This document shows positions 26,283-58,022 of a stretch of 58,022 nucleotides of DNA, piece by piece. Source of the stretch: Mucilaginibacter sp. (GTDB lineage: Bacteria; Bacteroidota; Bacteroidia; Sphingobacteriales; Sphingobacteriaceae); the NCBI GenBank assembly GCA_016763755.1, contig JAESTD010000031.1, positions 1 to 58,022 of the forward strand, given 5' to 3'. The stretch's first letter is position 1, and every line of letters begins with the position of its first letter. Under the pieces are notes generated by a model that had not been told where the DNA came from, did no database searches, and saw only the letters and a list, made by a program, of their open reading frames with translations. Position numbers and translations under genes: made by a program.

Positions 26283-26313
26283 GAAGCTAAAATAGTTAAG
26301 ATAGGTTAAAAAC

Positions 26314-26342
26314 AAAAGCCCTTCCGGGTCACGAAAGGGCTT
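26314..26342 (-). terminator. Rho-independent terminator of the polysaccharide deacetylase gene
   Basis: On the minus strand AAGCCCTT...AAGGGCTT with a 10-nt GC-rich loop region is followed by TTGTTTTT, about 18 nt after the deacetylase stop. Confidence 0.85.
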
Positions 26343-26359
26343 CATTCTATTTGATTATT

Positions 26360-27232: not shown

Positions 27233-27338
27233 ACAGTAGCAATATTTAAGGTCGCTAAATTAGAATATTTTACCCGCGCAATATTAACTGTTAATAAAAT
27301 TTAATAAGTTTCTAATTCGCTTAACATGGGCGGGAAAT

Positions 27339-27370
27339 AACAAAGCCCCGGCATATACCGGGGCTTTGTT
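27339..27370. terminator. Strong terminator of the PUL 3' end
   Basis: AACAAAGCCCCGG-CATATA-CCGGGGCTTTGTT is a perfect 13-bp stem. On the minus strand it lies 15 nt after the Gfo/Idh/MocA stop. The A/T flanks allow bidirectional use, but no plus-strand gene ends here. Confidence 0.88.
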
Positions 27371-27385
27371 TACAAAACAATGCTT

Positions 27386-28549
27386 TTAAAGCGTTATGCG
27401 TTTGCCTTCTGCAATGGAACGTTTTGCGGCATCCAGTATCTGCATTACTATCATGTTATTGCGTAACGACGACCTGTCCGTAATACCCAGCATTCGGTTT
27501 TGCACTACCGATTGCAGGTATGATATTGGGTTATCATTTGGTGAAGTCAAAGCCGGTGCCACTGAAGTAACCGCCGGAAATTTATCGATATGCGTAAGCA
27601 CATTCTCCTTATCAAATGCATGCATATACCCCTCATCTCCAAAAACCTCGAGATCTTTGATAGAGTACGGCCAATTCCACGACGCTTCGATTATGCCGGT
27701 AGCCGTTGGATATTCCAGGATGATGGTAGCGTCGTCCTCAACCTTTGGATAGGTTTGGGGCTTATAATGGCGCGCAATGGCGGTAACCGCGGTAGGGCGC
27801 TGCCCGTTCATTAACCAGGTGAACAAATTGGCGCCATAGCAGCCAAAATCATTGAGTGCACCGGCACCGTTTTGATCAGGGTCGGTCAGCCAATCCGTGA
27901 AGTCCTTACTGCAATTGATCTCTTTTGGCCCTTCGTGGCCGTCATGCGCTACCATTTTGCGGATCTGCCCGAGGCTGTCCTTCCGTGCTACATCACGGAT
28001 GCGGCGGTAGGATGGATACCAGGTAGTTTCATAATTTGTGAGCAGCTTAATGTAGTATTTTAAAGCTAAAAACTCCATACGCTTAGCTTGGGCAAGCGTG
28101 GCAGCCAAAGGCTTCTCAACCATTACCGATATACCCAAAGGTGCGCAAACTTCAACAACATCAATATGTTTGGCAACCGGGTTATAACCTAAAACTACAT
28201 CAGGTTTACGGGTAGTAGCCATGGTTTTAAGATCGTCAAAAAACAACGAATCGGGGATATTGTATTGCTGCTGCAAGCGGGCGCGCAGGTTTTTGTTTGC
28301 CTCGGCTATGCCTACAATGTTCACTTTGCCATCGCGATAATCGCTCAGTATCAAGTGCACATGGTCGTGCGATAAACCTGCTATCCCCAGTTTCATGGTG
28401 CTGAGCATTACCGGCTTCGCGGGCGTAACAATTGCCTTTGCCATCGCAGGGGGCATGATACCTGTAGCTTTTGGGGTTTGCGCCACCGAGGTAGCAACAA
28501 ATGCCCCAAAAGCCAAAGCAAAGCATAAAAGTGTTTTTGCAAGCTTCAT
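27386..28549 (-). CDS. Exported Gfo/Idh/MocA family oxidoreductase
   Basis: The 387-residue product starts with a clear signal peptide (LLCFALAFGAFVATSVAQ) and a short Pro/Ala linker, then a Rossmann domain (LGIAGLSHDHVHL near residue 53; VMVEKPLAAT near residue 138) and a C-terminal beta domain with WLTDPDQNGAGALNDFGCYG. Family members use NAD(P) as oxidoreductases, and some (GH109 and related) use tightly held NAD to hydrolyse glycosides. Export plus a position 11 nt behind a GH92 gene suggests periplasmic sugar processing. The glycosidase option is inference. Confidence 0.87.
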   Translation of the reverse strand: MKLAKTLLCFALAFGAFVATSVAQTPKATGIMPPAMAKAIVTPAKPVMLSTMKLGIAGLSHDHVHLILSDYRDGKVNIVGIAEANKNLRARLQQQYNIPDSLFFDDLKTMATTRKPDVVLGYNPVAKHIDVVEVCAPLGISVMVEKPLAATLAQAKRMEFLALKYYIKLLTNYETTWYPSYRRIRDVARKDSLGQIRKMVAHDGHEGPKEINCSKDFTDWLTDPDQNGAGALNDFGCYGANLFTWLMNGQRPTAVTAIARHYKPQTYPKVEDDATIILEYPTATGIIEASWNWPYSIKDLEVFGDEGYMHAFDKENVLTHIDKFPAVTSVAPALTSPNDNPISYLQSVVQNRMLGITDRSSLRNNMIVMQILDAAKRSIAEGKRITL

Positions 28550-28560
28550 AGCTTATCTGA

Positions 28561-30846: not shown

Positions 30847-30880
30847 CAGTTAAGTATAGCTAAATGTAAACAGCCGTAAA

Positions 30881-30915
30881 TATAAAAGACCGGCTGTTAA
30901 AGCCGGTCTTTTATA
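30881..30915 (-). terminator. Perfect 15-bp hairpin after susD (first PUL)
   Basis: TATAAAAGACCGGCT-GTTAA-AGCCGGTCTTTTATA, 13 nt after the susD stop on the minus strand, followed by T/A-rich sequence. It separates susCD from GH92 and could be a partial terminator or a 3'-end stabiliser. Confidence 0.85.
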
Positions 30916-30928
30916 TTGTAATTTTTAC

Positions 30929-32425
30929 TTACCAACCCGTATTTTGAGTCAAATTCTTATTGGTAGCTATTTCGCGTTGCGGAATAGGCCACAAATAATA
31001 TTGTTCTTTAAAGGTAACACCTTGTTCTGTTGGTGTTGTGGTTGCTAAGCCAAAAACGTTGGTTTTAGGATTATATGTTTGGTGCGTACGTTGCACATCA
31101 AAGTAGGCTTTATTTTCATAAGCCAGCTCGTGGTAGCGCTCTTTCCAGATAGCTATCCTTAACTGGTCTTTCGTTAATCCACTCAAACCTGCCAGTTTAG
31201 CACGGGCACGGATCGGATTGATCGCGTCGTAAACATCCTGGCTTGGGCCGCCAACTTCGTTTTGCGCTTCGGCGTAAATAAGCATTACTTCGGGTAAACG
31301 TAGTAAAGTCCAGTTCTCATCACAAATCCCGCTACCCAACGCACTCTCTAAGTGGAAGTACTTGTACAACGCATGCGAACCAAAGTTGATGATGGTTGAT
31401 GGTTCTTTGTCTTTAGGGTAGCTTGAGAAGTAAAACTGACGCTCCTGGGTACGAAAATCTCCGGCTTCATAGCTTGCTACAAAATCGTTGGTTGGTATCA
31501 TGGCACCAAGGTGGTCACCGTATGCACCAACCTGTAAGTTAAATGGCAGGGTTAACTGCGCTATAGCGTTGTCTCTTACACCTACAAGGTAATTTACCTG
31601 GAAGATAAGCTCACCCTGATTTTTATGTGCATTATCATGCAAATAAGCGTAGTCAGTAAACAAGGTGTACATCGGGATAACGTCTTTGGCCTCGGCAGCA
31701 GCTTTTGCATAGTTCTCAGTTTGCTGTAACGGGAAACCTGCAGTTGTTAGGTAAACACTTGCCAACAGGCTTTTTATAGCACCCAGGGATACTTTACCGG
31801 TTTGGTCGGTGTTAGGAAGACCCATGGTTTTAGCGGTTTCAAGATCTGATATGATCTGTTTGTAAACATCAGCTTGCGCGGTTCTTGATGCATACAAATC
31901 CGGATCGCTTACTTCCTGCGGCTTAACCACCAACGGCACATCTCCATATAACCTTACCAGATGGTAGTAGAAGAACGCACGCAGAAAATACACCTGCCCA
32001 AGCAGGTTGTTTTTTGCTGCATCATCTATACTCATATTCGGGATGCGGTCTAACGCTAAGTTTGCATTAGCGATAGCGCTGTAGCTGTTTTTCCAAACGG
32101 TTTCGAAGCCCGGATTAACAGGGTCGGTACGTTGGTTTATCACGTTGCCATTGTTAACACTCTGGCCCAATGATGTAGCGTGGCCCGCAAAAAGCTCTAT
32201 TGTGATAAAAGGAGCTTCGCCGTATGCATCGCCATTTTGGAACATATACAGGTAAGTGTATATACCATTAACAAATGATGTAGCCTGGCCTATGTTGTTA
32301 AAATAGTTAGACTTATCATTATTACTGAAGTTTTTCTCTTCAAGGTATTTCTTACAGCTTGTTGTAACTGTAAGCGTTAGCAGAACTAACAAACCTATAC
32401 TATATTTTTTGATATTGATTTTCAT
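30929..32425 (-). CDS. susD: SusD/RagB family nutrient-binding outer-membrane lipoprotein
   Basis: The 498-residue lipoprotein has a signal ending LTVTTSC (lipid Cys near residue 24) followed by KKYLEEKNFSN, typical of SusD. TPR-like helices (FLRAFFYYHLVRLYGDVPLV) and the C-terminal RPEVMLIYAEAQNEVGG-type motif (LRLPEVMLIYAEAQ) are present, as is NPIRARAKLAGL. SusD caps the SusC barrel and binds oligosaccharide at the cell surface. It is 22 nt downstream of susC. The ligand is inferred to be a mannoside from GH92. Confidence 0.94.
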   Translation of the reverse strand: MKINIKKYSIGLLVLLTLTVTTSCKKYLEEKNFSNNDKSNYFNNIGQATSFVNGIYTYLYMFQNGDAYGEAPFITIELFAGHATSLGQSVNNGNVINQRTDPVNPGFETVWKNSYSAIANANLALDRIPNMSIDDAAKNNLLGQVYFLRAFFYYHLVRLYGDVPLVVKPQEVSDPDLYASRTAQADVYKQIISDLETAKTMGLPNTDQTGKVSLGAIKSLLASVYLTTAGFPLQQTENYAKAAAEAKDVIPMYTLFTDYAYLHDNAHKNQGELIFQVNYLVGVRDNAIAQLTLPFNLQVGAYGDHLGAMIPTNDFVASYEAGDFRTQERQFYFSSYPKDKEPSTIINFGSHALYKYFHLESALGSGICDENWTLLRLPEVMLIYAEAQNEVGGPSQDVYDAINPIRARAKLAGLSGLTKDQLRIAIWKERYHELAYENKAYFDVQRTHQTYNPKTNVFGLATTTPTEQGVTFKEQYYLWPIPQREIATNKNLTQNTGW

Positions 32426-32447
32426 GATCGATATAGATTTGAATTAA

Positions 32448-35400
32448 TTAAAAGCTTGCATTTACCCCAAGTACAAAGGTTCTTGGTTTTGGATAATCAT
32501 AGAACTGGATGTTTTGGGTAAAGTTGCTCGATTGTCCCTGGTTGTAGTTAGCATTACCGTTGTAAGTTGATACCTCAGGGTCGTAACCAGTGTATTTGGT
32601 TATCACGAACAGGTTTTGCGCCTGTGCATAGATACGTAACCTGGTCAGCTTGATTTTATCCAGTACAGATTTATCAAAGGTGTAACCAAGCGTTACTGCA
32701 CGGCCGCGGATGAAGTTACCACTCTCAACTTTGGTTGAGTAGATCTCGGTTTGGTAACGTACATACGCCGGTCTGGTCTCTGCTATAAAGGTGTTTTGGT
32801 GCTCAGGTGTCCATGCATCTAAAACGGTGGCATAGCTGTTTGCCTGGCCGGTACGATCCTGGCCTGAGTGTTTGGTCAGGTTCATGATCTGGTTACCGTA
32901 GTTAAACTGAAGCTCGATACCTAAATCGATGTTTTTGTATGAGAAGTTATTGGTAAAGGTACCGTATCCGTCAGGGATAGATTTACCAAGGATAACTTTA
33001 TCATCAGCAGTAACTTTGCCATCGCCGTTGGTATCTTGTATTTTCAGATCACCAGGCAGTAAGCCGTAAGAGGCTGCCTGCGTTGCTTCTGCAGTACCCC
33101 AGGTGCCTAATACTTTGTAACCAAAGAATTGGCCGGCCGGACCGCCAACGCGCATCAGGTTAAATTGCGACAAGAAGTTAGGGTCAAGGAAAATATCGTC
33201 GTTAGACTCTCCCAATTGCAGGATCTTGTTTTTCAGGAACGATATATTGAATGAGGTAGTCCAGCTGAAATCATTGGTTTTGATGTTCTGGGTATTGATA
33301 GATAGCTCGATACCTTTGTTTTCCAGTTTACCAACGTTTTTAAATACAGTTTGGAAGCCACTGCTCTCAGGTAGTGGTGCTCTTAACAATAAAGCCTGTG
33401 TTTTTTTCAGGAACGCATCTGCATCAATGGTAACACGGTTGTTGAACAAACCAAATGATACACCTAAGTTATACTCGTTGGTTTTTTCCCAGCTTAAGCC
33501 AGGGTTACCAATGGTGGTAAGTGTTGTACCGGTAGCTTGTGCACCGCCTAACACATAGTTAGTAGTATTGATCTGTGCAAGTGATTGATAGGTAGGTATC
33601 TCCGAGTTACCCGTAACACCGTAGCTTAAACGGAATTTAAGGTCAGAAATAGCTTTGTTATCCTTCATAAATTCTTCCTGCGACACTCTCCATGCAAATG
33701 CTGCAGAGGGGAAGAAACCGTATTTATGGTCGGCACCAACCCTTGAGGTACCATCCGCGCGGCCGGTTAAGGTGAACAAATACCTATCCATAAGGTTGTA
33801 ATTTACCCTACCGTAGAAAGATTGCATTTGCCATGCGTTGTAACCTGAAATAGGAACTCCGGGGATTGCACCTGCACCCAGGTTATAATATTGATAGAAA
33901 TCATCAGATAAACCACGGGTTGAACCGTAAGCTCTTAATTCCTGATAATTTTGGCGTTCTGTACCTAATACAACGTTTAAGCTATGTATTTTATTAAAAG
34001 TTGCGTTGTAAGTAAAGTAGTTTTGCCATTGCCAGAAAGTACGGTTGTACTCATCGATAGATGCTGAGCTGTATTTCTGATCGGCAGTTGCACCGCCTAC
34101 CAAACCGCTTGCAAAGCGAGGGATATAGTTACCAGATGTAGTAACACCCAGCACACTGCGGAACTCTAAACCTTTAAACAGGTTAATGTTGGCATAACCG
34201 TTACCGCTAAATACGCGTACGCGGGCAAGTTCCTGTATCTCGTTTGCTTGTGCAACCGGGTTGTCGCCGCCTTCCATGTTAGGGTAGTCGGTACGTTTAC
34301 CATAGCTGCCATCAGGGTAACGGATAGGGATGATCGGGATCATCTCTACCAACATACGCGGGATGTTGTTACCACCGGTGCCGTAATTACCAGCGCGTTG
34401 GTCCTGGGCGTTATAATTTAAAGTTGCTCCGATCTTTAACCATGGTTTTACCTGGTTATCGATGGTTAAACGTGCGTTGTAACGCTTTAAATAGCTGTTA
34501 AGGATAATACCCTGGTCATCGGCATAGTTTAAGAACAAGCCGTAGTTGATGTTTTCTGAACCACCTGTTACTGATACGTTGTGATTTTGGCTAACCGCAT
34601 TGCGGGTGGTAGCATCCTGCCAATCAACGTCATAAAGAGGGTTGAGGTTAGCATCAAATAATTTACCGATCAGCGGTGTACGTAGTTTCACCGGATCCTG
34701 ATCTACATACTTGCCATCAGCCCAGCCCTGAGGGTCATATTTCTGGATATTTGCGTAAGCTTTATCTTCAAGCGCTAAAAACTCTTTTGCATTTAATACA
34801 TCCAATTTTTTAGCGATGTGGCCAACGCTTACATAACCATCATAGCTTACTGTGCTCGGGCGGTTTTTAGCACCACGTTTGGTGGTTATCAAAATTACAC
34901 CGTTAGCACCACGTGTACCGTAGATAGCTGTTGATGATGCATCTTTCAAAACGTCGATAGAAGCAACATCATTAGGGTTGATAGAGTTACCACCTTCAGT
35001 CCAGATGATACCGTCAACCACATAAAGCGGATCGGTACTGGTATTGATAGAGCTGTAACCGCGTATACGGATACGGGTGTTACCGCCCGGTTCGCCCGAG
35101 TTTTGCGAAACGTTTACCCCGGCAATTTTACCGGCAAGTTCCTGCTCAAGGTTGGTTTGCGGCCTTTCTTGCAATGCTTTGCATTAACACTACCTACAGA
35201 ACCGGTAAGGTCTACGCGTTTTTGTGTACCGTAACCTACCACAACAACCTCGTTCAAAGCTTTTGACTCTTCGGCCATGGTTACGTTAATTACGTTGCGG
35301 TTTGAGATGGCTATTTCCTGAGTAGTATAGCCCAGAAAACTGAACACTAACGTTCCGTTACCATCCGGTACGGTCAATTTAAATTTACCGGAAGCATCGG

Positions 35401-35875
35401 TAGTTATACCAACGTCGGTACCTTTTAATTTAACGTTAACGCCTGGTAGCGGGCCCTTGGCATCACTAACCGTACCGGTTATGTCAAGCGCCTTAAATTC
35501 GGCCTGTACAGTGTTTTCTTCACGCTTTTTTACTACAATGGTTTCCTGGAAAATTTTGTAGGTAAGTGGCTGATCTTTAAAAGCCTGGTCAAGCGCCTGG
35601 GTTACAGATACCTGGTCAACTTCGATATTGATGCCGCCTGCTTTTGCAACATCTTGCTTATCATACATAAAATGGTATCCCGTTTGCTTCTCTATCAAAC
35701 GGAGGATCTTCTCAACTGAGGCATTCTTTTGGCGCAACGATACAGTTTGACTGAACGTTTTTGCGCTAACATTGGTTAGTGCTGCAATTATTAAAATAGC
35801 AGTGAATTTCATGACCAATAAAACTTTGGACAGTTTAGACCATGCCAAGGGCACGGCCTTAGGATTAAAATTCAT
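32448..35875 (-). pseudogene. susC: SusC/RagA TonB-dependent transporter with STN domain, split by a single-base deletion
   Basis: Two track ORFs (35114-35944 and 32448-35174) are halves of one gene. The N-terminal half (ATG at 35875, MNFNPKAVPLAWSK) has a signal segment, an STN domain (about 50-125), a carboxypeptidase-like domain (about 150-230) and TonB-plug start NEVVVVGYGTQ, ending VNAKHCKKGRKP. The second half resumes with QERPQTNLEQELAGKIAGV. Adding one base near 35178-35182 restores VNAKALQERPQTN, the normal SusC sequence. The rest of the plug and the barrel are intact to FVLGVNASF. An STN domain implies signalling to the adjacent FecR. Either a real null allele or a consensus error. 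Confidence 0.9.
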
Positions 35876-36105
35876 AAGTTTGTGTGTTTGGGTTAAACAT
35901 AAAGTTTCAATTCGTCGATTGCGATGGAGTGGGAACCCAGGCATTTATGCCGGGAAGTGGGTCGAAACACTTTCCGGTTTTTTTGCCCTGTACAACCCCG
36001 TAGGGAGTGGTTTACCCTGACCGTTTAACTTTTGAGGCGTATTTTTTTTATCATAACTGGTTTAAATTTGAGATTGTGGATTATGTGGTATTATTTATTA
36101 CTTGG

Positions 36106-37296
36106 TTAGTTCACTATAATTTCTTCGCCCTTTAAGCTGATGTCTATACCTGCGTATTTTAGCATGTTCAGCAACTCAGAAGCTTTTACATTTCTTGATA
36201 TTCTGCCATTAAATTCTTTATCCGGCACCTGATGCAGGTATTTTATATCAACATCATACCAACGGGCGGCCTGGCGCAGTATTACGTCTATCTTTGCATC
36301 GCTAAACTGAAAGATGCCGTTTTTCCATGCTACCTCGTCATCAAGGTTAACATCATTCAATACTGTATTTTTTCCGTTGTTATTTATCTGGGCTTGCTGC
36401 CCTGGTATTAGCTTCGCGCTAAAGTTACCGCTGTTAATTTTTACAGCGCCCTCAAGCAGGGTGGTTTTCATAACCTGCTCGTCATCGTAGGCCATAACAT
36501 TAAAATGTGTTCCCAACACTTCAATGTCTGCACGATGTGTCTTAACCATAAAAGGCATGTTCTTGTTTTTGGTAACTTCAAAATAAACCTCACCTGTAAT
36601 ACTTATTTGCCGGTTTTTGCCCGTAAAGTGTGTCGGAAATGTGATAGATGAAGCTGAATTTAACCAGGCCTGAGTGCCATCAGGTAAAACTATCTGGTAC
36701 TGCCCGCCGCGCGGTGTGTTTATGGTGTTTATTACCGGCGTATTCGATTGATCGTTATAAGCGGTCATGTCGTACACTATCCGGCCATCATTGGTTTTTT
36801 TAACAAAGGTATTCCCTTCCTCTGCTATGGTGCCATCTGCGGCATCATCAAGTACAATGGTTTTACCATTGGCAAGCTTTAAAGTGGCTTTGTTGCCGCC
36901 GGGCAATGCATCATTATAAAGTCTTTTCTTTTTAGCAACTAAAACAGGTTTTGCTATTTGTACGGTTTGATGTTGGTATAAAACCACACCTGTAACTAAT
37001 AAAATGGCAGCTGCAGATAGTATAGGGATCCATCCCCTGAATTTTCTGCGTATCGGAGATGAAGGGTTACCTTTTTTTTGCAGTATGCTTTGCAACATGC
37101 GTTGCGTTTTTACATCCCCAAATATATCTTCGTCGATCTCAAGGTCGTCCCATGATTTTTTGATGAGTACGGATAGTTCATCGTCGGTAGTGCCGGCGTC
37201 AATTACGGCAAACAACTCGTCGCGTTCTTGCGGCGTAGCAGTTTTTTTGTAAAAGCGTTCAAAAAGGTATTGCAACCTAAACCTGGATGTACTCAT
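36106..37296 (-). CDS. FecR-type anti-sigma factor
   Basis: The 396-residue protein has a cytoplasmic N-terminal region (about 1-85) that would bind the sigma factor, one membrane segment (about 88-105, WIPILSAAAILLVTGVVLY), a FecR domain (about 185-285, TPRGGQYQIVLPDGTQAWLN) and a C-terminal DUF4974/STN-like domain (about 320-396). In such systems ligand-loaded SusC signals through its STN domain to FecR, which releases the ECF sigma factor. It lies between the sigma gene and susC, the standard order. Confidence 0.95.
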   Translation of the reverse strand: MSTSRFRLQYLFERFYKKTATPQERDELFAVIDAGTTDDELSVLIKKSWDDLEIDEDIFGDVKTQRMLQSILQKKGNPSSPIRRKFRGWIPILSAAAILLVTGVVLYQHQTVQIAKPVLVAKKKRLYNDALPGGNKATLKLANGKTIVLDDAADGTIAEEGNTFVKKTNDGRIVYDMTAYNDQSNTPVINTINTPRGGQYQIVLPDGTQAWLNSASSITFPTHFTGKNRQISITGEVYFEVTKNKNMPFMVKTHRADIEVLGTHFNVMAYDDEQVMKTTLLEGAVKINSGNFSAKLIPGQQAQINNNGKNTVLNDVNLDDEVAWKNGIFQFSDAKIDVILRQAARWYDVDIKYLHQVPDKEFNGRISRNVKASELLNMLKYAGIDISLKGEEIIVN

Positions 37297-37395
37297 TAAA
37301 TGTTTTTCAATAATTGGTAGTGTAAAAGCCGGGGAAGCTTTTTATATAAGACACTAATGGCGGTAAAAAAGGGGGTATAGTGTCTCGGATTTTTT

Positions 37396-37974
37396 TTAAA
37401 AAAATATCGAGGCCAAAACGATCAGTGCTGAAATATTGCCGTACGATTGCACAAAACTGGTAATTGAATGGGTAGCTCCCTGCAGGTATTTCTTCACCGT
37501 TTCTCGCGAGAGGCCCATGTGTGCGGCAATCTCATCATACTTTAAACGATCATGGCGGCTTAGCAGGTAAACCTTTTGTTGTTGAGGTGGCAAATGATCA
37601 ATGGCCATATCAAGTAACTGATAATAATCATTGGTTGGCGATGTTTCGTCAGTTATCAAATTCAGTACGTTATTGTCAAGGCTTGTTTCGTAGGCGCGTT
37701 CTTTGGCCAGTTTGCGCAAGCAATTCAATGCGTGGTTTTTTGACACTACAAAAAGATACGCCTTAAAATTATCTACAGAAGTAAGTGTTTCGCGATTGAT
37801 CCATATCTTCAAAAAAACATCTTGCACAACTTCCTCAGTCAATTCTACAGAATCCGTAATGCGAAAAATATGGGAACCCAACAGCCGGTGATATACACCA
37901 AAAAGCTCGCTAAAAGCATTCTCATTTCCACGAGATACTTCTAAAAGGAGTTCTTTTTCGTTTGGTAGCGCCAT
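37396..37974 (-). CDS. ECF RNA polymerase sigma factor (Bacteroidota FecI-like)
   Basis: The 192-residue product has sigma region 2 (about 15-85, EEVVQDVFLKIWINRE) and region 4 (about 120-175, YLLSRHDRLKYDEIAAHMGLSRETVKKYL) with the helix-turn-helix. A hydrophobic C-terminal tail (ISALIVLASIFF) follows. It is the first gene of the PUL regulatory module and probably activates susC, with release controlled by the adjacent FecR protein. The 168 nt upstream are A/T-rich and hold no gene. Confidence 0.95.
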   Translation of the reverse strand: MALPNEKELLLEVSRGNENAFSELFGVYHRLLGSHIFRITDSVELTEEVVQDVFLKIWINRETLTSVDNFKAYLFVVSKNHALNCLRKLAKERAYETSLDNNVLNLITDETSPTNDYYQLLDMAIDHLPPQQQKVYLLSRHDRLKYDEIAAHMGLSRETVKKYLQGATHSITSFVQSYGNISALIVLASIFF

Positions 37975-38142: not shown

Positions 38143-39164
38143 CTAAAACAAGGAAGGTGTGCCGCCGGGTTTTATTTTGCCTAAATGGCGATATGCGGCT
38201 TCTGTAACTTCGCGACCCCGGGCAGTGCGCATCAAGAAACCTTCCTGTATCAGGAACGGTTCGTAAACTTCTTCAATGGTGCCTTCGTCCTCGCCAACAG
38301 CAGTGGCAATCGTTTTAAGGCCAACAGGGCCACCCTTAAACTTATTGATAATAGTAGCTAATATTTTATTGTCCATTTCGTCTAAGCCATGCTCATCTAC
38401 ATTGAGGGCATTAAGGGCATATTGGGCAATTTCGGTATCAATTTTACCGTTGCCTTTTATCTGGGCAAAATCGCGGGTACGGCGCAGTAGGGCGTTTGCA
38501 ATACGCGGAGTGCCACGGCTGCGGCGGGCTATTTCATAAGCGCCCTCATCGGTGATCGGCGTACGTAGGATAGAGGCCGAACGCAGCACAATAGTAGTTA
38601 ACAGTTTAGCATCATAATATTCTAAACGGCTGTTGATACCGAACCTTGCACGAAGCGGAGCAGTTATAAGCCCGAGCGCGTAGTAGCGCCCACAAGCGTG
38701 AACGGATTAAGCGAGATCTGCACGGAGCGTGCATTGGGGCCACTCTCCAACATAATATCTATCTTAAAATCTTCCATAGCCGAGTACAAATATTCCTCAA
38801 CCAGCGGACTTAAGCGGTGTATCTCGTCAATAAAAAGGATGTCGCCTGTTTCGAGATTGGTAAGCAGTCCGGCCAAATCACCAGGTTTGTCCAATACGGG
38901 GCCCGAGGTAATTTTAATGCCTACGCCCATTTCATTGGCAATAATGTGCGAAAGGGTAGTTTTTCCCAATCCCGGCGGGCCATGCAGCAGCACATGATCT
39001 AAAGCCTCGCCACGCAAACGGGCAGCCTGCACAAAAATCCGCAAGTTAGCCAGTATACTGTGCTGACCGGTAAAATCCTCAAACGCAGCAGGGCGCAATA
39101 CTTTTTCAATATCACGATCGGTAGGAGTAAGACGTTCGCCATCGGGATCAAGGTGCTCGTTCAT
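38143..39164 (-). pseudogene. ruvB: Holliday junction branch-migration helicase RuvB, split by a single-base deletion
   Basis: RuvB is the AAA+ motor of RuvABC. The ORF 38664-39164 gives the N-terminal half with Walker [13 protein letters not shown] and Walker [12 protein letters not shown] and ends VGATTRSGL. Translation then meets a stop. The continuation [18 protein letters not shown] is in another frame and joins ORF 38143-38589, which carries the sensor/arginine region and winged-helix domain ([33 protein letters not shown]). Inserting one base near 38665 restores [14 protein letters not shown] and about 340 residues, normal for RuvB. Because ruvB is almost universal, a consensus error is likely. 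Confidence 0.92.
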
Positions 39165-48783: not shown

Positions 48784-51700
48784 ATGAAATTTATTAAACA
48801 CCCAACGGGTGTAAAGAATAAATGCGGGCTATCTTCAAGAAAGTCGGTATTTATAATGAATTTGACACTTGCTTTAACCGTGCCTGTTGCATTGCCAAGC
48901 ATTGCAAGCGCATTCCCGCTAACAAAAGCAACCGTTAATGTAGATAAGCTTGTAAACTTTGCCGTTATAAAAGGTAAAGTATTAGATGAGAACGGTGCCC
49001 CATTGCCAGGTGTATCGGTAAGTGTAAAAGGCACCTCAGGTGGTGCTGTAACTGATGCAAGCGGTAATTTCTCAGTAAATGCTCCAGACAATGCAACCTT
49101 AGTATTTTCTTTTATTGGCTATCAATCTCAGGAAGTAGCCGTTGCAGGTAAAACTGTGATCAATGTTACTATGGTCCCGTCAGCAAAAGGGCTTAACGAG
49201 GTTGTAGTTACTGCACTTGGTATAACCAAAGAACAAAAAAAATTAGGCTATTCGGTATCTACCGTAAATGGGGATGCACTTAATAAAGCTAAAGAGAGTA
49301 ACGTTGCTTTATCACTTCAAGGCCGCGTAGCCGGTTTAAGTGTTGGTGCATCAAACGGTGGCCCGGGTTCGTCTGCACGTGTTTTATTACGTGGTTTAAC
49401 CAGCTTTACAGCACAAAGCCCTCTATATGTAATAAATGGTGTGCCTATGGATAATACCCAGAGAGGTGCATCAGGAGAATGGGGTGGTGCTGATTACGGT
49501 GATGGTATCTCTAACATCAACCCTGATGATATTGAGTCAATGACTGTTCTTAAAGGCCAGACAGCATCTGCTCTTTACGGCTCACGTGCAATCAACGGTG
49601 TTATTTTGATCACTACTAAATCAGGCAAGAAAAATGCCGGTTTTGGTGTTGAACTTAACAGCAACATACAGTTTGACCAGCCAGTTGATAATACCGATTT
49701 TCAACAAGTTTACGGCCAGGGTATACAAGGCAACAAGCCAACAACGCTTGATGCAGCCCGTCTCTCAGGAAACCTTGCATGGGGTTCCAAGATGGACGGC
49801 TCTGATGTTATGCAAATCGATGGTAAAACACATAAATATTCTCCGGTAAGCAATTATATCGATTTCTATCGTACCGCGCCATCATTTACTAACACCGTTG
49901 CGTTCACTAATGGTGGCCCTAACGGTGCCTTCAGGTTATCGTTATCAGATCTGCGTGCAAATTCAATTGTACAAAACAGCTATCTTGATAGGAAAACCTT
50001 CAATTTTAACGGAAGCCAACAGGTTACTCCTAAATTAAACATCAATGTTGTAGCCAACTACGTATTAGAAAGTTCTAAAAACAGATCTGGCTTAAGTGAC
50101 GGTCCGGGTAACCCTAACAACGTACAATTCCTTGCTCCTAACCAGGATCAGGCTACTTTGGCTCCGGGTGTTAATGCTGACGGTAAAGAGTTAACCTTTA
50201 CTGATGACAGTTATGTAACTAACCCTTATTTTGCTGCAAACTATTTCCAAAAGAATGTTAAGAGAGATCGTTTTATCTCTTCTTTATCAGCGAAATACGA
50301 CCTTACAAAATGGATATACGCACAAGCGCGTTTAGGTTATGATAAAAGTAACGATGAGCGTATAGATCTTGAACCTACAGGAACTGCGTACCGCAATGAT
50401 AATGGTACCATGAACCAGTCAAACAACCAAATCACAGAATTTAATGCCGACGTGTTGCTTAATGCCAAGCACGATATCGTTAAAGACCTGTTGAATTTAG
50501 ACTTAAGCATCGGTGGAAACATCCGTAAATCAAGCTACACCGGTACTTACATCAATGGTCAAAACGGGTTTATCATCCCTTATTTCTACAGTTTAAAAAA
50601 CTTTACTACTCGTGATTCCGGCCCTTTAACTGAGGATCCGTTTAGCAAAAAACAAGTAAACTCAGCATATTATTCAGCTGACTTTTCGGTAAAAGATTAC
50701 CTGGTAGTGAGCACCACCGGCCGATATGATACTTACAGTACTATATCTAACTCAGTTGGGCGTGGCATATTCTCTCCATCGGTATCAGGTAGTTTCATTT
50801 TCTCTGAGCTTTATAAAATGAACAATGTTGACTTGGGTAAAGTGCGTTTATCATTTGCACAAACAAGTAACGATGCGGCAGCATTTGCCAACACGGTTTA
50901 TTATAACTTAAACAACGCCATTAATGGTGTGCCAACAGCCGGTTTCAGCAGTCAGCTTCCTAACTTGTTCTTAGCACCTTTCAGGTTAAAAGAGCTTGAG
51001 GCTGGTTTAGAAATGAAATTCTGGGGTGATAGACTGGGTTTTGACCTTGCTTTCTTCTCACGTAAAACTAAAAATGAGATCATTAACGCTAACATTGATT
51101 GGTCGACAGGTTATACCAACCGTTATATCGGTACCGGCTCTACACAAAACCGCGGTATTGAGGTTGAGATACATGGCTCACCAGTTAGAACGTCTTCATT
51201 TAGCTGGACACCTGCACTTAACTTTACTTACGTTAAGAATAAGATCCTTCAAACAGATGGCGGAGACAATGGCAACGTAACTTTTGGTACCTACCGCCCA
51301 TTAAATGCTAACCTTGCGTTAGTAGCAGGTTTACCGGGCCCTCAGATCCTTGCTTACGATTACAAGCGCGATGCATCAGGAAATATAGTTATCGGATCGG
51401 ATGGCATACCCGTACGTGGCGATCTTAAGCCAATGGGTTCAACCATTCCAAAAATGTACGGTGGTTTAAATAACACGTTCAACTATAAACAATTTAACCT
51501 TGGGTTCTTAATTGATTACCGTTTTGGTGCTAAAGTGCTTTCGGGTACTGAGTATTACAGCATCTTTAGAGGTTTAAACAAATTAACTCTTGAAGGCCGC
51601 GAAACCGGCGTTGTAGCAGTAGGTGTTACCGAAAGCGGCGCGCAAAATACACAAAATGTATCTGCCCAAACTTACTACCAGGGTTTAGCGCGTAACATAT

Positions 51701-51972
51701 CAGCATCTAACGTATTAAACGGCGATTTCATCAAACTTCGTCAGGTTACTTTAGGCTATGTTTTCAACGCACCAATGTTAAGAGGTACGCCTTTCAGCAG
51801 TATAGGCGTATCAGCAGTGGCTCGTAACCTTTGGACGATCATGAAACACACCAAAAACATCGACCCGGAATCAGGTTTCTCAAACGATGTTAGATACACA
51901 GGTATTGAAGGCACCAGCTTACCTTTCACCAGAACTTATGGTTTAAACCTAAACTTTAAATTCAAAAACTAA
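48784..51972 (+). CDS. susC: SusC/RagA family TonB-dependent outer-membrane transporter
   Basis: The 1062-residue protein has a signal region (about 20-45, TLALTVPVALPSIASA), a carboxypeptidase-like domain (about 60-135, GKVLDENGAPLPGVSVSVKG), the TonB-plug motif NEVVVTALGITKEQKKLGYS, plug core SLQGRVAGLSVG and MTVLKGQTASALYGSRA, and a long barrel ending LNLNFKFKN. There is no STN domain and no sigma/anti-sigma pair next to it, unlike the first PUL, so regulation differs. It should import a substrate bound by the SusD 5 nt downstream. Confidence 0.95.
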   Translation: MKFIKHPTGVKNKCGLSSRKSVFIMNLTLALTVPVALPSIASAFPLTKATVNVDKLVNFAVIKGKVLDENGAPLPGVSVSVKGTSGGAVTDASGNFSVNAPDNATLVFSFIGYQSQEVAVAGKTVINVTMVPSAKGLNEVVVTALGITKEQKKLGYSVSTVNGDALNKAKESNVALSLQGRVAGLSVGASNGGPGSSARVLLRGLTSFTAQSPLYVINGVPMDNTQRGASGEWGGADYGDGISNINPDDIESMTVLKGQTASALYGSRAINGVILITTKSGKKNAGFGVELNSNIQFDQPVDNTDFQQVYGQGIQGNKPTTLDAARLSGNLAWGSKMDGSDVMQIDGKTHKYSPVSNYIDFYRTAPSFTNTVAFTNGGPNGAFRLSLSDLRANSIVQNSYLDRKTFNFNGSQQVTPKLNINVVANYVLESSKNRSGLSDGPGNPNNVQFLAPNQDQATLAPGVNADGKELTFTDDSYVTNPYFAANYFQKNVKRDRFISSLSAKYDLTKWIYAQARLGYDKSNDERIDLEPTGTAYRNDNGTMNQSNNQITEFNADVLLNAKHDIVKDLLNLDLSIGGNIRKSSYTGTYINGQNGFIIPYFYSLKNFTTRDSGPLTEDPFSKKQVNSAYYSADFSVKDYLVVSTTGRYDTYSTISNSVGRGIFSPSVSGSFIFSELYKMNNVDLGKVRLSFAQTSNDAAAFANTVYYNLNNAINGVPTAGFSSQLPNLFLAPFRLKELEAGLEMKFWGDRLGFDLAFFSRKTKNEIINANIDWSTGYTNRYIGTGSTQNRGIEVEIHGSPVRTSSFSWTPALNFTYVKNKILQTDGGDNGNVTFGTYRPLNANLALVAGLPGPQILAYDYKRDASGNIVIGSDGIPVRGDLKPMGSTIPKMYGGLNNTFNYKQFNLGFLIDYRFGAKVLSGTEYYSIFRGLNKLTLEGRETGVVAVGVTESGAQNTQNVSAQTYYQGLARNISASNVLNGDFIKLRQVTLGYVFNAPMLRGTPFSSIGVSAVARNLWTIMKHTKNIDPESGFSNDVRYTGIEGTSLPFTRTYGLNLNFKFKN

Positions 51973-51977
51973 AACAG

Positions 51978-53570
51978 ATGAAAAAAAGATATTTTTTTAG
52001 TTGTCTGGTAGCTGGAGCTACATTTATGTCCAGCTGTACCAAGAATTTTGATGAGATCAATACGAACCCGAATAAAACTACGGCAGACCTTATCAATCCA
52101 AACTATTTCATGTCGCAGGCGCAGATCACTTTCTCGCAAACCGGCTATGATCAGTTGTTGTTCCAAAGCATGTGGACGCAGTCGTTAGCATCAACTTTTA
52201 GCTATTACAGCAACGGTGATAAGTATGTATTAGGCGGTAGCGGTACCGGTTATTATAACCGTACCTGGAACCGTGCCTACAGCGCACTTACTTTGGTTGA
52301 TGAAATGAAGAATTTGATCAAAGACAAGCCTGAGTACACCAACCTTGACGCTTGTGGTTCAATTTTACGTGTGCTTTTTATGCAGCGCATTACAGACCTG
52401 TACGGCGATGCTCCGTATAGCGAAGAGGGTCTTGCAAAGAGCGGTAATTTTACACCTAAGTTTGATAAACAGCAAGATATTTACAATGCTATGTTATCAC
52501 AGCTTGAAACTGCTATCGCTGCACTTGATGCGTCTAAAGCTGCGCCAACAACCGATCTTTTTTACAAAGGCAATATTCCTCAGTGGAAACGGATGGGTTA
52601 TTCATTGATGTTGAGATTGGCAATGCGTTTAACAAAAGTTTCTCCGGACCTTGCCAAAACATGGGCCGAGAAAGCTTACGCAGGCGGCACCATGACTAGC
52701 GCTTCAGACGATGTTAAGGTAATGGCTGATGCTAACAATGCTACCAGCAGTAATTCTGATGCATTATTGGTAACAGATGATTTCCGCGAAGTACGCTGGG
52801 GTAAAACTTTGATGGATTACTTAAAAGCAAACAATGACCCACGTATCAGCGCAATAGCTGAGATCACCAATGGTAATGGTAAAAAGGCTAACGAAGATAG
52901 AACTGTTGTTGGTAACAATGCCGCTGCTTTGCAATTAGGTTTGCCAAACGGCTATGATCTGTTAGGTGGTAATACCGATATTTCAAAAGCTCCGGGTTAC
53001 CCGGGTGCAACCCCTGCTGCAGATGGTACAGATGCACCTGCACCGCTGGGTAAATACTCTCGCCCGCGTTTAAGAGTGTATGATGATAAAGGCAGCGCTA
53101 ACTTTATCTACACCTACGGCGAATCTGAATTATTATTGGCAGAAGCCGCTTCAAGAGGATGGAATACAGGCGTGGCTGCTACACACTTTGCAAACGCTTT
53201 AGCGGCAGACATGAAATCATTAGCAGGTTATAACGCAACACCTACCGCTGTAGTTAGTGACGCTGATATTGCAATTTATGTTGCTGCGCATCCGTTAGTT
53301 GCGGGCACTGCATTACAACAGATCAATACAGAGTACTGGGTTGCCACCTCAACCACTTTTGATTTTAACGAGACATTCGCTAACTGGAGAAGATCTGGTT
53401 TCCCTGTGTTAACCCCGGTTACTTACCAGGGCCAATACATCACAAGCCAGGTGCCACGCAGAATGCCTTATCCTATTACACTACCACAGCAAAACGGTGC
53501 TAATTATGCCGCTGCTGTCTCAAGTCAGGGTGCAGATAACTTTGCTACCCGTGTTTGGTGGGATAAATAA
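51978..53570 (+). CDS. susD: SusD/RagB-like outer-membrane lipoprotein (SusD-like_2 type)
   Basis: The 530-residue lipoprotein has a signal ending ATFMSSC (lipid Cys near residue 20) and the typical opening KNFDEINTNPNKTT of the second SusD subgroup. Conserved features include RVLFMQRITDLYGDAPYSEEG, the helical repeat region and YGESELLLAEAASRGW. It is the surface ligand-binding partner of the preceding SusC; gap 5 nt. The substrate is unknown because no glycoside hydrolase follows. Confidence 0.94.
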   Translation: MKKRYFFSCLVAGATFMSSCTKNFDEINTNPNKTTADLINPNYFMSQAQITFSQTGYDQLLFQSMWTQSLASTFSYYSNGDKYVLGGSGTGYYNRTWNRAYSALTLVDEMKNLIKDKPEYTNLDACGSILRVLFMQRITDLYGDAPYSEEGLAKSGNFTPKFDKQQDIYNAMLSQLETAIAALDASKAAPTTDLFYKGNIPQWKRMGYSLMLRLAMRLTKVSPDLAKTWAEKAYAGGTMTSASDDVKVMADANNATSSNSDALLVTDDFREVRWGKTLMDYLKANNDPRISAIAEITNGNGKKANEDRTVVGNNAAALQLGLPNGYDLLGGNTDISKAPGYPGATPAADGTDAPAPLGKYSRPRLRVYDDKGSANFIYTYGESELLLAEAASRGWNTGVAATHFANALAADMKSLAGYNATPTAVVSDADIAIYVAAHPLVAGTALQQINTEYWVATSTTFDFNETFANWRRSGFPVLTPVTYQGQYITSQVPRRMPYPITLPQQNGANYAAAVSSQGADNFATRVWWDK

Positions 53571-53587
53571 TAACTCCGATTTTAGTT

Positions 53588-53622
53588 AAATAGTAAAGAG
53601 GCTATATGCCTCTTTACTATTT
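53588..53622 (+). terminator. Perfect 15-bp hairpin after susD (second locus)
   Basis: AAATAGTAAAGAGGC-TATAT-GCCTCTTTACTATTT with a 5-nt loop, 17 nt after the susD stop, followed by ACTTTTAAG. Same stem and loop size as the hairpin after the first susD but different sequence. May be a partial terminator ahead of the FG-GAP gene. Confidence 0.85.
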
Positions 53623-53640
53623 ACTTTTAAGCTTGATATA

Positions 53641-56600
53641 GTGTTGAAGATCCCTGATTCTTTCCGTTGCTTGCTCATAATTGCAGCCTTTTGCTTCCCT
53701 AAGGCCCTTTCTGCGCAAACGTTATTTAAACTATTGCCTTCCACTCAAACCAGTATTAAATTCAGTAACGACATTGCTGAAACAGAATCTTTAAACGTTT
53801 TATCATACGAATACTTCTACAATGGGGCAGGTGTTGCCGTTGGCGACATCAACAATGATGGCCTGCCCGACCTGTATTTTACAGGCAACATGAAACCTGA
53901 TAAGCTGTACCTTAACCTTGGCGGCTTAAAATTTAAAGACATTACCCGCGAAGCCGGATCTGGCTTAGAAGGGCGTAACAATGGTTGGAAAACTGGTGTA
54001 ACCATGGCCGATGTAAACGGCGATGGTTTAGTAGATATCTATGTTTGCTATTCTGGCAAAAAAGATGATGCCATACGCGCCAACCAACTTTTCATCAACA
54101 AAGGAAATAACAAGTTCGAGGAACAAGCTGCCGCATATGGCCTTGCCGATGTAGGCTACAGTACCCAGGCCGTATTTTTTGATTACGACAACGACGGCGA
54201 CCTGGACATGTTCCTGCTGAACCACAATATAAAAAAGCTCGATAACATGGAGCTTGCCCGGTACAAAGATCAAACGGACCTGCTGGCGAGTAACAAACTC
54301 TACCGTAATGATAATGGCAAGTTTACGGAGGTATCAAAAAGCGCCGGAATTATCCAAAACCCGCTCACCTTCGGTTTAGGTGTAGCGGTATCAGACATTA
54401 ACAAAGATGGCTGGCTGGATATCTACGTTACCAACGATTATAACGAACCCGACTACATCTACATTAATACCCATAACGGCAAATTTGAAGAACGTTCAAA
54501 AGAAATGCTGAGACACATGTCACATTTCTCTATGGGGGTAGATGTGGCAGATTATAATAACGATGGCCTGCCCGATATCTTAACATTGGATATGCTGCCT
54601 GCAGATAACCACAGGCAAAAATCATTACAATTACAGGAAAACTATGAGTCTTTCGCATTGATGCAAAACCAGGGTTTGTATAACCAATACATGCGCAACA
54701 TGCTGCAGTTGAATAATGGCGACGGCACATTTAGCGAGATCGGTCAGTTGGCAGGTATTTCTAATACCGACTGGAGCTGGTGCCCCTTGTTTGCTGATTT
54801 TGATAATGATGGTTATAAAGACCTGTTCATATCAAACGGTTACCTGCGCGACTATACCAACAAAGATTTTTTACGGTATTGGGGTGATTACAAAATTAAA
54901 AAAGCGATGGCCAACGAGCCATTCTTGCTGATGGATCTGGTGCAAGCGATGCCATCTACGCCGGTGCCTGATTATATCTTCCGAAATAACCACGATCTTA
55001 CTTTCAGCAATAAACAAGTGGAGTGGGGGCTCGATCAGCAAAATATTTCAGGAGGCGCGGTATATGCCGACCTGGATAATGACGGGGACCTTGACCTTGT
55101 GGTAAATGCCATTAACCAACCGGCTTCTGTCTATCAAAATAACAGTATTGAGAATTTCAAAACCCATTATATTGCTTTTAAACTGAAGGGCGAGGGTCAA
55201 AACACTGCTGCCATTGGGTCTAAAATATACCTGTATACCGCGGCGGGTACCCAGAACCAGGAATTGATACCAGGTAGGGGATACTTGTCATCGGTTTCAA
55301 CCACGCTTAACTTTGGTTTAGGCAGCCAAACCAAAATTGATTCGGTAAAGATCATTTGGCCGAACCAAACGGTACAGTATTTAAAGGATATTAAGGCCGA
55401 TCAGCAGATAACTGTTTCTCCCAAACCAACGGACATGGCTGGTCTGGATGCTGCACCACAAAAGCTGTTAAGCGAGGTTAAACCACTTATAGCTTACAAA
55501 CCCGATGAGGCAACCGACAATGATTTTAAGCGCCAACTACTGATGACGTTTATGTATTCCAGAACATCACCGGTTATGGCCAAGGCCGATGTTAATGGCG
55601 ATAAGCTGGAAGATATTTTTGTAAGCGGCGAAAAAAATAGTCCTGGTAAATTATTTATTCAGCAAAAAGGTGGCACTTACCAGCTTGTTGAGTTGGTGCG
55701 TGGTTATGAGGAAAATATAGGTTCCATTGCTGCGGCGGTATTCTTTGATGCCAACGGAGATGGCAAACCCGACTTGTATCTTGCAAAAGGTGGTTATGCT
55801 AACTATGAACCTAATACTGCCAACCTGCAGGATGAACTTTATTTAAATGAAGGTAATGGCCGTTTCGTACTAACAAAAACAGGTTTACCAACTCTTAACG
55901 CAAACAGCAAAAGCTGTGTTGTTCCATGCGATTTTGATGGAGATGGCGACATTGATCTCTTTGTGGGCGGAAGGGTAATCCCAGGCAAATACCCTGTCAC
56001 TCCGCAAAGCTACTTATTGATAAATGATGGTAAAGCGCATTTCACTGTGGCCGATGTGCCATTTGCCAAAATAGGTATGGTTACCGATGCGCAATGGGTT
56101 GATCTTAACAACGATAAGCGCAAGGATCTGGTGCTGTGCGGCGAAATGATGCCAATAACCATATTCCTAAACACGGCTAAGGGCTTTGAAGATCACACTG
56201 TTGATTATTTTGCATCACCACAAAAAGGCTTTTGGTTTAAAATGGCCTTTGCAGATGTGAATGGCGATGGCACGCCTGATCTGATTGCCGGCAATCTTGG
56301 CCAAAATTCTCAGATCCACGCATCGGAAAAAGAACCGGCAGAACTTTACTATGCCGATTTTGACGATAATGGTTCTATCGATCCATTCCTCAATTTTTAT
56401 GTTGATGGTAAAAGCTATCCCTTCGTAAGCCGCGATGAAATAAATGAGCAGATCTACTCAATGCGTCGCAGATTTACTTCATACAAAGCGTACGCAGATG
56501 CTTCGATGAAAGAAATACTGAATGCTGACGAATTGGCTAAGGCGCAAAAGCTTCTGGCCAACACCACTGCAACTACCTTATTTATTAACAAGGGCGGTAA

Positions 56601-56925
56601 ATTTACCCAAGCCGAATTGCCTTTAGATGCACAATTTGCTCCTGTTACGCAGATACTCACCAATGATTTCGATAAAGACGGTAAGCAGGATATTTTATTG
56701 CTCGGCAACAGATCAGATAACCGTTTAAAGATAGGCAGTATGGATGCTAATTATGGCGTGCTATTGAAAGGAGATGGTAAAGGTGGATTTACCTACATCA
56801 CACAACCCGTATCAGGTCTGTCAGTAACAGGAGATGTGAAATCCGCAGTAGAGACCAGGGTAGATAATGTGAATTATTTGATCATCGGGACATCCGGCAA
56901 CCCACTTCAATTTTTTAAACGATGA
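53641..56925 (+). CDS. FG-GAP/VCBS repeat protein with ASPIC/UnbV domain
   Basis: The start is GTG at 53641. The 1094-residue product has a signal peptide (LIIAAFCFPKALSAQ) and two sets of FG-GAP/VCBS repeats with Ca-binding loops such as DINNDGLPDLY, DVNGDGLVDIY, DYDNDGDLDMF and DFDNDGYKDLF (about 60-470 and 660-1060). An ASPIC/UnbV domain lies at about 515-590 (IGSKIYLYTAAG, RGYLSSVSTTLNFGLG, DSVKIIWPN). Such beta-propeller proteins are secreted or surface bound. It overlaps the next gene by 4 nt, so both are coupled to the SusCD pair. Function unknown. Confidence 0.92.
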   Translation: MLKIPDSFRCLLIIAAFCFPKALSAQTLFKLLPSTQTSIKFSNDIAETESLNVLSYEYFYNGAGVAVGDINNDGLPDLYFTGNMKPDKLYLNLGGLKFKDITREAGSGLEGRNNGWKTGVTMADVNGDGLVDIYVCYSGKKDDAIRANQLFINKGNNKFEEQAAAYGLADVGYSTQAVFFDYDNDGDLDMFLLNHNIKKLDNMELARYKDQTDLLASNKLYRNDNGKFTEVSKSAGIIQNPLTFGLGVAVSDINKDGWLDIYVTNDYNEPDYIYINTHNGKFEERSKEMLRHMSHFSMGVDVADYNNDGLPDILTLDMLPADNHRQKSLQLQENYESFALMQNQGLYNQYMRNMLQLNNGDGTFSEIGQLAGISNTDWSWCPLFADFDNDGYKDLFISNGYLRDYTNKDFLRYWGDYKIKKAMANEPFLLMDLVQAMPSTPVPDYIFRNNHDLTFSNKQVEWGLDQQNISGGAVYADLDNDGDLDLVVNAINQPASVYQNNSIENFKTHYIAFKLKGEGQNTAAIGSKIYLYTAAGTQNQELIPGRGYLSSVSTTLNFGLGSQTKIDSVKIIWPNQTVQYLKDIKADQQITVSPKPTDMAGLDAAPQKLLSEVKPLIAYKPDEATDNDFKRQLLMTFMYSRTSPVMAKADVNGDKLEDIFVSGEKNSPGKLFIQQKGGTYQLVELVRGYEENIGSIAAAVFFDANGDGKPDLYLAKGGYANYEPNTANLQDELYLNEGNGRFVLTKTGLPTLNANSKSCVVPCDFDGDGDIDLFVGGRVIPGKYPVTPQSYLLINDGKAHFTVADVPFAKIGMVTDAQWVDLNNDKRKDLVLCGEMMPITIFLNTAKGFEDHTVDYFASPQKGFWFKMAFADVNGDGTPDLIAGNLGQNSQIHASEKEPAELYYADFDDNGSIDPFLNFYVDGKSYPFVSRDEINEQIYSMRRRFTSYKAYADASMKEILNADELAKAQKLLANTTATTLFINKGGKFTQAELPLDAQFAPVTQILTNDFDKDGKQDILLLGNRSDNRLKIGSMDANYGVLLKGDGKGGFTYITQPVSGLSVTGDVKSAVETRVDNVNYLIIGTSGNPLQFFKR

Positions 56926-58022
56926 AGTGTTTTAAACCATATCTGTTGTTAGCGCTTGCGTTTGTTAATACGTTAACCGCTGGGGCACAAAGCCGTAAAA
57001 CCTATCCGGATTATTTGCAGCCGGATCATGCGGTAAATGCACTTACTATGGTGATGATCCATGATGTGGTTAGTCCGCCGGTTGCTGCACGGTATTATGC
57101 TTACTGCATGATGGGAGCTTATAATCTGGTGAATGCCAATAATAAGAGTATTCCTGCTCTGCAAAAGATCATTAAGTCCTATAAAACTGGAGGCGCTTTA
57201 GATACGCTCAAGGTTACGTATGATTATAAAATAGCATCATACTATTCAATACTGGAGTTAGGTAAAAAGTTATTGCCATCAGGCCCCTTGCTTGAGGATG
57301 ATCAGAATCAATTTGTATCGCTGCTAAAGAAAACCGGGGTAAAGCAGGATGTAATAGACAACTCTGTAAAAGCAGCGCTAATTGCTTCAAAGGACGTGTT
57401 AGCTTTCGCCAAAACGGATAATTACAACAAACTAAGTACCCTCAAAAGATACACACCTTCTAAAGACGACGGCAAATGGTATCCAACACCGCCAGGATAT
57501 TTTGAAGCGGTAGAACCAAATTGGCGTACTGTAAGAGTACTTTTGCTTGACTCAGCGAAACAATGCAAGCCGGGGAAGCTTACACCATTCAGTAAAGATT
57601 CTACTTCGGCATTCTACAAACAGGTAATGGCGGTGTATGATCAATCTAAACACCTTACGGTAGAACAGCTTAACCAAGCCCTGTTCTGGGATTGTAACCC
57701 TTTTGCCATTACCACATCCGGCCACATGGCTATTGGTTTCAAGAAGATAAGCCCGGGCGGGCATTGGATGCATGTTACCGGCTTGGTTTCTAAACAAGCA
57801 AAATTAAGTTTCGACCAAACCATTGCAGCACTTACCATTGAGGGTGCAACCCTCATGGATGCCTTTATCAGTTGCTGGGACGAGAAATATAACAGTGACC
57901 GCATTCGCCCCGAAACATATATCAATAAATATATAGATGTCACCTGGCAGCCGGTATTGCAAACGCCGCCGTTCCCTGAATATACCAGCGGGCACGCAGT
58001 AATTTCAAATGCATCAGCAGAG
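56922..58022 (+). CDS. Vanadium-dependent haloperoxidase/PAP2-like phosphatase, 5' part (3' end outside window)
   Basis: The frame is absent from the track because it has no stop before the window end. ATG at 56922 overlaps the previous stop (ATGA). The 367 visible residues start with a signal peptide (YLLLALAFVNTLTAGAQ), continue with a helical region (WMHVTGLVSKQAK, ATLMDAFISCWDEKYNSDRIRP) and end in PEYTSGHAVISNASAE, where SGH is the PAP2/haloperoxidase signature, with the Lys/Arg motif KYNSDRIRPETY before it. Members bind vanadate and oxidise halides or are acid-phosphatase-like. Coupling to the FG-GAP gene is seen directly. Confidence 0.88.
   Translation, partial: MKCFKPYLLLALAFVNTLTAGAQSRKTYPDYLQPDHAVNALTMVMIHDVVSPPVAARYYAYCMMGAYNLVNANNKSIPALQKIIKSYKTGGALDTLKVTYDYKIASYYSILELGKKLLPSGPLLEDDQNQFVSLLKKTGVKQDVIDNSVKAALIASKDVLAFAKTDNYNKLSTLKRYTPSKDDGKWYPTPPGYFEAVEPNWRTVRVLLLDSAKQCKPGKLTPFSKDSTSAFYKQVMAVYDQSKHLTVEQLNQALFWDCNPFAITTSGHMAIGFKKISPGGHWMHVTGLVSKQAKLSFDQTIAALTIEGATLMDAFISCWDEKYNSDRIRPETYINKYIDVTWQPVLQTPPFPEYTSGHAVISNASAE

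Follow-up and report, generated by a model that had tools for sequence, protein, structure and literature searches.

What does an exported haloperoxidase do behind an outer-membrane SusC/SusD (SusCD) importer and a giant secreted protein of the FG-GAP/UnbV type? This question is raised by positions 48784–58022 (plus strand) of contig JAESTD010000031.1 of Mucilaginibacter sp. (assembly GCA_016763755.1). The window analysed here is this entire contig (58,022 nucleotides; C297 hereafter), which belongs to a draft genome of 349 contigs, 87% complete. The answer favoured here, with about an even chance of being right, is that an N-glycan-like glycoconjugate would be exploited by a polysaccharide-utilization locus (PUL), in which an exported halide-oxidising enzyme would be partnered by a double-propeller scaffold resembling cartilage acidic protein 1 (CRTAC1). 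An earlier note on the same DNA described the SusC, SusD, FG-GAP/UnbV and haloperoxidase-like genes together with a 4-nt overlap of the last two; all of these were recovered in place.

The haloperoxidase and its FG-GAP partner

The last gene of the window (56922–58022, plus strand) comprises the first 367 codons of a vanadium haloperoxidase, its reading frame being open at the contig end. It was assigned to the type of ZgVIPO1, the Zobellia vanadium iodoperoxidase, by the pocket motifs and by a profile of 39 family members, which matches ZgVIPO1 (PDB 4cit) over the whole length (E = 1e-179). The remaining significant solved matches of the profile are haloperoxidases or homologues such as NapH3, and no PAP2 phosphatase was among the significant matches in this search of solved structures. 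The fold was modelled on the orthologue from Mucilaginibacter glaciei (L086; predicted local distance difference test, pLDDT, 90.3); the model displays the two-bundle fold of vanadium haloperoxidases over ~450 amino acids (aa) and aligns with 4usz and 4cit with a template modelling (TM) score of 0.91 by target length and 39–40% identity. The fold and the vanadate pocket are those of the vanadium iodoperoxidase type, and homology and modelling indicate a relationship to ZgVIPO1 over the full length of the enzyme. Hence, the haloperoxidase reading of the earlier note is upheld and, by the profile and fold matches, sharpened to the ZgVIPO1 subfamily.

The part of the pocket encoded in the window includes the K-x6-RP and TSGH motifs. 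The earlier note proposed reading beyond position 58022 to view the complete active site, and named the lack of a second His/Arg motif as grounds for refutation. To look for the continuation in this genome, the DNA downstream of a related haloperoxidase gene (L046; 84% identical enzyme) was used; it matches a single site, at the very end of contig C48. Contig C48 starts in frame, ~5 codons past the last codon of the window, and first encodes GDNFSFTDNTEIPFGSSQRSFKSFRQAAAEASMSRFYGGIHYMESI..., i.e., the absent C-terminus of the haloperoxidase with the SRx5H motif (SRFYGGIH). The genome harbors three further close paralogues of the enzyme; since each of them is complete on its own contig, the end of C48 does not stem from them. 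We infer from the sequence that the operon of C297 runs on into C48.

The second His/Arg motif, thus present on C48, is invariant in the homologues, and the pocket is intact. The positions of ZgVIPO1 Trp321, Lys324, Arg331, Phe353, His360, Arg410 and His416 are invariant in 135 homologues (Trp321 and Phe353 corresponding to Trp318 and Phe350), whereas the position of Tyr263 is occupied by Phe in 112 of them. A broken or degenerate vanadate pocket is ruled out by the C48 motif and by the invariant residues. A more distant group of vanadium haloperoxidases (~515–545 aa; L069 on G000:C169, L186–L200 and L202) has a conserved neighbourhood of its own, lacking FG-GAP genes.

The gene directly upstream (53641–56925, plus strand, GTG start) encodes a protein of 1094 aa, and its TGA is overlapped by the ATG of the haloperoxidase by 4 nt (ATGA). 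According to Pfam, it consists of nine FG-GAP_3 stretches and a UnbV_ASPIC domain (E = 1e-22), the combination characteristic of CRTAC1-like proteins; CRTAC1 (PDB 9etn) is also the closest solved structure both by sequence and by fold. In the model (pLDDT 92.8, predicted TM score 0.92), repeats of β-strands flank the UnbV/ASPIC domain on both sides, and they are read here as two propellers. The calcium-loop repeats mentioned in the earlier note were confirmed by a count of 12 DxDxDG-type loops, which suggest calcium binding. Judging from the modelled double-propeller fold, it is plausible that the protein binds or presents a substrate, as the note had proposed. A simple lipobox pattern was found in 51/122 FG-GAP proteins and 52/123 haloperoxidases, so some members of both families appear to be lipoproteins; the pair in the window look like ordinary secreted proteins.

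Coupling of the two genes across Bacteroidota

The linkage was assessed in 120 loci picked by the haloperoxidase alone, the neighbourhood being defined as within six genes. An FG-GAP gene was present in 113 of the 120 loci; in 98 the two genes share a strand and the FG-GAP gene immediately precedes that of the enzyme (median gap −1 nt), and a gap of zero or less was recorded in 56. By comparison, FG-GAP genes were near the distant haloperoxidase relatives in 0/20 loci, although these represent the same taxonomic family and mostly the same genomes. Within 151 genomes of the taxonomic family, a strong haloperoxidase match was accompanied by the FG-GAP protein in 41 cases out of 41, and the FG-GAP protein alone was found in a single genome. 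Among 396 genomes of the phylum, it was detected in 70 of the 74 genomes with the haloperoxidase (the four exceptions being divergent matches) and in 46 genomes without it; hence, the presence of the enzyme predicts that of the FG-GAP protein better than the reverse. The distances of the two proteins are correlated (0.85, or 0.67 once SusC is removed), although these counts and correlations ignore shared ancestry, so that Fisher tests overstate independence.

Moreover, the pair persists with a swapped or absent SusCD across many genera of Bacteroidota. It was also found around the characterised enzyme: one genome encodes a protein 98% identical to ZgVIPO1, and three FG-GAP genes lie immediately upstream of it. 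A reading in which ZgVIPO1 has no FG-GAP partner, based on listed FG-GAP matches 250 kb off, is therefore wrong. In haloperoxidase-free genomes, the FG-GAP gene was found beside SusC in 16 of the 19 loci sampled. Giant FG-GAP/UnbV proteins at SusCD loci without this haloperoxidase (L206–L225) may represent a general extra part of some SusCD loci.

Further genes were noted near the pair in some loci. A protein with weak matches to Cu2_monoox_C and Haem_bd is encoded in L077, L078, L148, L151, L154, L155, L159, L160 and L165, and several of these loci also possess a thioredoxin-like gene (AhpC/TSA), which hints at additional redox steps. In the Dyadobacter loci (L096, L099, L100 and L101), the neighbour is a DUF7133–HEAT–cytochrome c protein with a GDSL match; in L075 and L076, it is a glucose/sorbosone-dehydrogenase–cytochrome c protein.

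Glycan context and competing explanations

The importer consists of a TonB-linked outer-membrane pore of the SusC/RagA type (48784–51972, plus strand; 1062 aa; TIGR04056, E = 2.2e-176; CarbopepD_reg_2 and Plug domains) and an adjacent SusD-like_2 substrate-binding lipoprotein (51978–53570, plus strand; 530 aa; PF12771, E = 3.4e-61), the arrangement typical of a SusCD PUL. The gap between the SusD and FG-GAP genes accommodates a perfect terminator- or attenuator-like hairpin (53592–53618, plus strand; −20 kcal/mol), which could possibly put the expression of SusCD above that of the FG-GAP protein and the haloperoxidase. A stem of at least 8 bp occupies its position in 17 of 29 related gaps.

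The earlier note regarded the importer as one without carbohydrate enzymes. On C48, the C-terminus of the haloperoxidase is followed on the same strand by glycoside hydrolases (GH) of the families GH29 (479 aa), GH20 (772 aa) and GH92 (759 aa), and after these by GH3 and an AraC regulator; all of them are linked to the importer if the join suggested by frame and synteny is accepted. The gene order haloperoxidase–GH29–GH2–GH20 is displayed by the close relatives L046 and L047. Hence, the reading of the note on this point is refuted and needs to be corrected: the apparent lack of carbohydrate enzymes is an artefact of the assembly edge.

At least two of the families GH29, GH2, GH3, GH92 and GH20 were present in 13 of the 18 orthologous Sphingobacteriaceae loci and in none of the two control sets (0/19 and 0/20). 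The nearest solved relatives are fucosidases, an exo-glucosaminidase/β-mannosidase and a β-xylosidase. As predicted from the families, the set of exo-glycosidases for fucose, N-acetylglucosamine, mannose and xylose is of the N-glycan type. Four loci also encode a protein of the Asparaginase_2 family, among whose members is glycosylasparaginase. The same GH families have been biochemically shown to degrade plant N-glycans in Bacteroides (PMC9522356). Other paralogue groups are accompanied by GH35, GH2 LacZ, GH65, trehalase or sulfatase, and one fixed substrate for all FG-GAP/haloperoxidase pairs is ruled out by these differences.

Under the favoured explanation, SusCD would import N-glycan-like oligosaccharides, which the glycosidases would strip of fucose, N-acetylglucosamine, mannose and, perhaps, xylose. 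A rigid double-propeller scaffold holding the substrate and/or the enzyme would be provided by the FG-GAP protein. The exported vanadate-dependent peroxidase would use hydrogen peroxide (H2O2) and, by analogy with ZgVIPO1, iodide to generate a local oxidant modifying or unmasking the glycoconjugate, consuming ambient H2O2 on the way. The enzyme probably carries out halide-peroxidase chemistry; that it acts directly on the glycoconjugate seems less likely than not.

Several circumstances weigh against this explanation. Contigs C297 and C48 share no overlap. The partner glycosidases vary among the paralogue groups, and many loci outside Sphingobacteriaceae show none; for these reasons, the function of the pair need not be tied to N-glycans, and the pair resembles a module employed in various contexts more than one dedicated to N-glycans. 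A search of this 87%-complete genome for the peptide-N-glycosidase (PNGase) families A and F yielded neither; endo-β-N-acetylglucosaminidases (ENGases; GH18, GH85) were not searched for. Finally, homologues of vanadium haloperoxidases may perform other chemistry, e.g., an α-hydroxyketone rearrangement according to the PDB title of NapH3 (8cxl).

In a bolder version, the haloperoxidase itself would be the glycan-releasing step: hypohalous acid, made beside the substrate held on the FG-GAP scaffold, would cleave the Asn-linked carboxamide in a Hofmann-type reaction, replacing PNGase or ENGase. It is favored by the N-glycan-type exo-glycosidases in the apparent absence of PNGase A and F (with the above proviso on ENGases), as well as by the use of hypochlorite or hypobromite (bleach) to free N-glycans in glycomics (PMC9512068). 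On the other hand, the characterised enzyme most closely related to it is an iodoperoxidase. Since hypoiodite was ineffective and the hypohalites needed alkaline conditions (PMC9512068), this version is deemed a long shot.

The main rivals are a phosphatase function and the handling of halides and oxidants as an end in itself. In the latter case, the enzyme, a passenger of surface loci, would support iodine accumulation or the removal of peroxide at the host surface, and the glycan genes would share its promoter, not its chemistry. Zobellia vIPO3 is expressed more strongly on Ascophyllum nodosum than on alginate, as one part of the response to algal defence (PMC9296495), and iodine uptake in Arenibacter C-21, which has at least five ZgVIPO1 homologues, needs calcium and H2O2 or an iodide-oxidising system (PMC5064120). 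The variable set of partner glycosidases fits this possibility, too. Still, it leaves unexplained the recurrent SusCD and glycosidase neighbours and the obligate large FG-GAP partner. It seems doubtful, albeit a serious contender.

A phosphatase, which would take phosphate off phosphorylated glycans such as phosphomannan before import, is suggested by the Pfam match (PF01569, PAP2), the K-x6-RP/SGH/Rx5H pocket common to haloperoxidases and PAP2 enzymes, the GH92 mannosidases nearby and the dephosphorylation catalysed by the apo form of fungal vanadium chloroperoxidase (VCPO; PDB title of 3bb0). However, the whole-length and fold matches go to ZgVIPO1, the residues Trp318 and Phe350 are invariant, and phosphatases are far down: they are absent from the profile matches and match in the core only (TM 0.3 by query, E > 5e-4). 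Membership in PAP2 acid phosphatases is thus disfavoured, phosphatase action is unlikely, and the phosphorylated substrate envisaged in the earlier note found no specific support. A merely accidental neighbourhood of large families is the least probable of all: SusCD and FG-GAP proteins are indeed numerous in Bacteroidota, and species are not independent samples, but chance is ruled out by the control with the distant haloperoxidases, and neither the genome-level co-occurrence, nor the start/stop overlaps, nor the persistence of the pair with other or no SusCD conforms to it. Random co-occurrence, named in the earlier note as grounds for refutation, is therefore not what the loci display.

Place among known systems

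Elsewhere in the window, a second PUL on the minus strand (25809–37974) comprises an ECF sigma factor, FecR, SusCD, a GH92 mannosidase, a GFO/IDH/MocA oxidoreductase, a polysaccharide deacetylase and a SnoaL-like protein. Its SusC (32448–35944, minus strand) is split by a frameshift into open reading frames of 276 and 908 aa. Likewise, ruvB (38143–39164, minus strand) appears as two open reading frames in different frames; the genome being a draft, this frameshift probably stems from faulty assembly or sequencing.

PULs, CRTAC1-like proteins and vanadium iodoperoxidases are each already known; a description of the FG-GAP/haloperoxidase combination was not found in the open-access literature, which is no proof of its absence. 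The vanadium iodoperoxidases of Bacteroidota, a structurally solved family, thereby gain a genomic context as partners of giant CRTAC1-like double-propeller proteins, often inside glycan-harvesting loci. According to the favoured explanation, halogen or peroxide chemistry and the uptake of glycans may be tied together throughout a large phylum. The roles of both families become testable by gene deletion.

ZgVIPO1 (PDB 4cit, 4usz) shares with the present enzyme whole-length homology, the fold, all vanadate-pocket residues and, in its 98%-identical copy, the location directly downstream of FG-GAP genes. It differs in sequence (~40% identity) and in Tyr263, replaced by Phe in most of the family; the Zobellia-like locus contains three FG-GAP genes, and no glycosidase was recognised within the stretch read. 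The PAP2 acid phosphatases of the PhoN/PhoC type have the helical bundle of the core and the catalytic motifs in common with the enzyme, but they are half the size, lack the VCPO_2nd bundle and match the structure weakly. CRTAC1 combines an FG-GAP propeller with a UnbV/ASPIC domain as well, whereas the locus protein is secreted by a bacterium, is ~1100 aa long and has its UnbV domain flanked by FG-GAP repeats at either end. The closest counterparts of the locus as a whole are the plant N-glycan PULs of Bacteroides (PMC9522356), in which SusCD is likewise found with GH29, GH20, GH92 and GH3 (GH2 being present in the relatives of our locus). In comparison with these, the Mucilaginibacter genome yielded no PNGase A or F, and its locus has an FG-GAP double propeller and a haloperoxidase as additional components.

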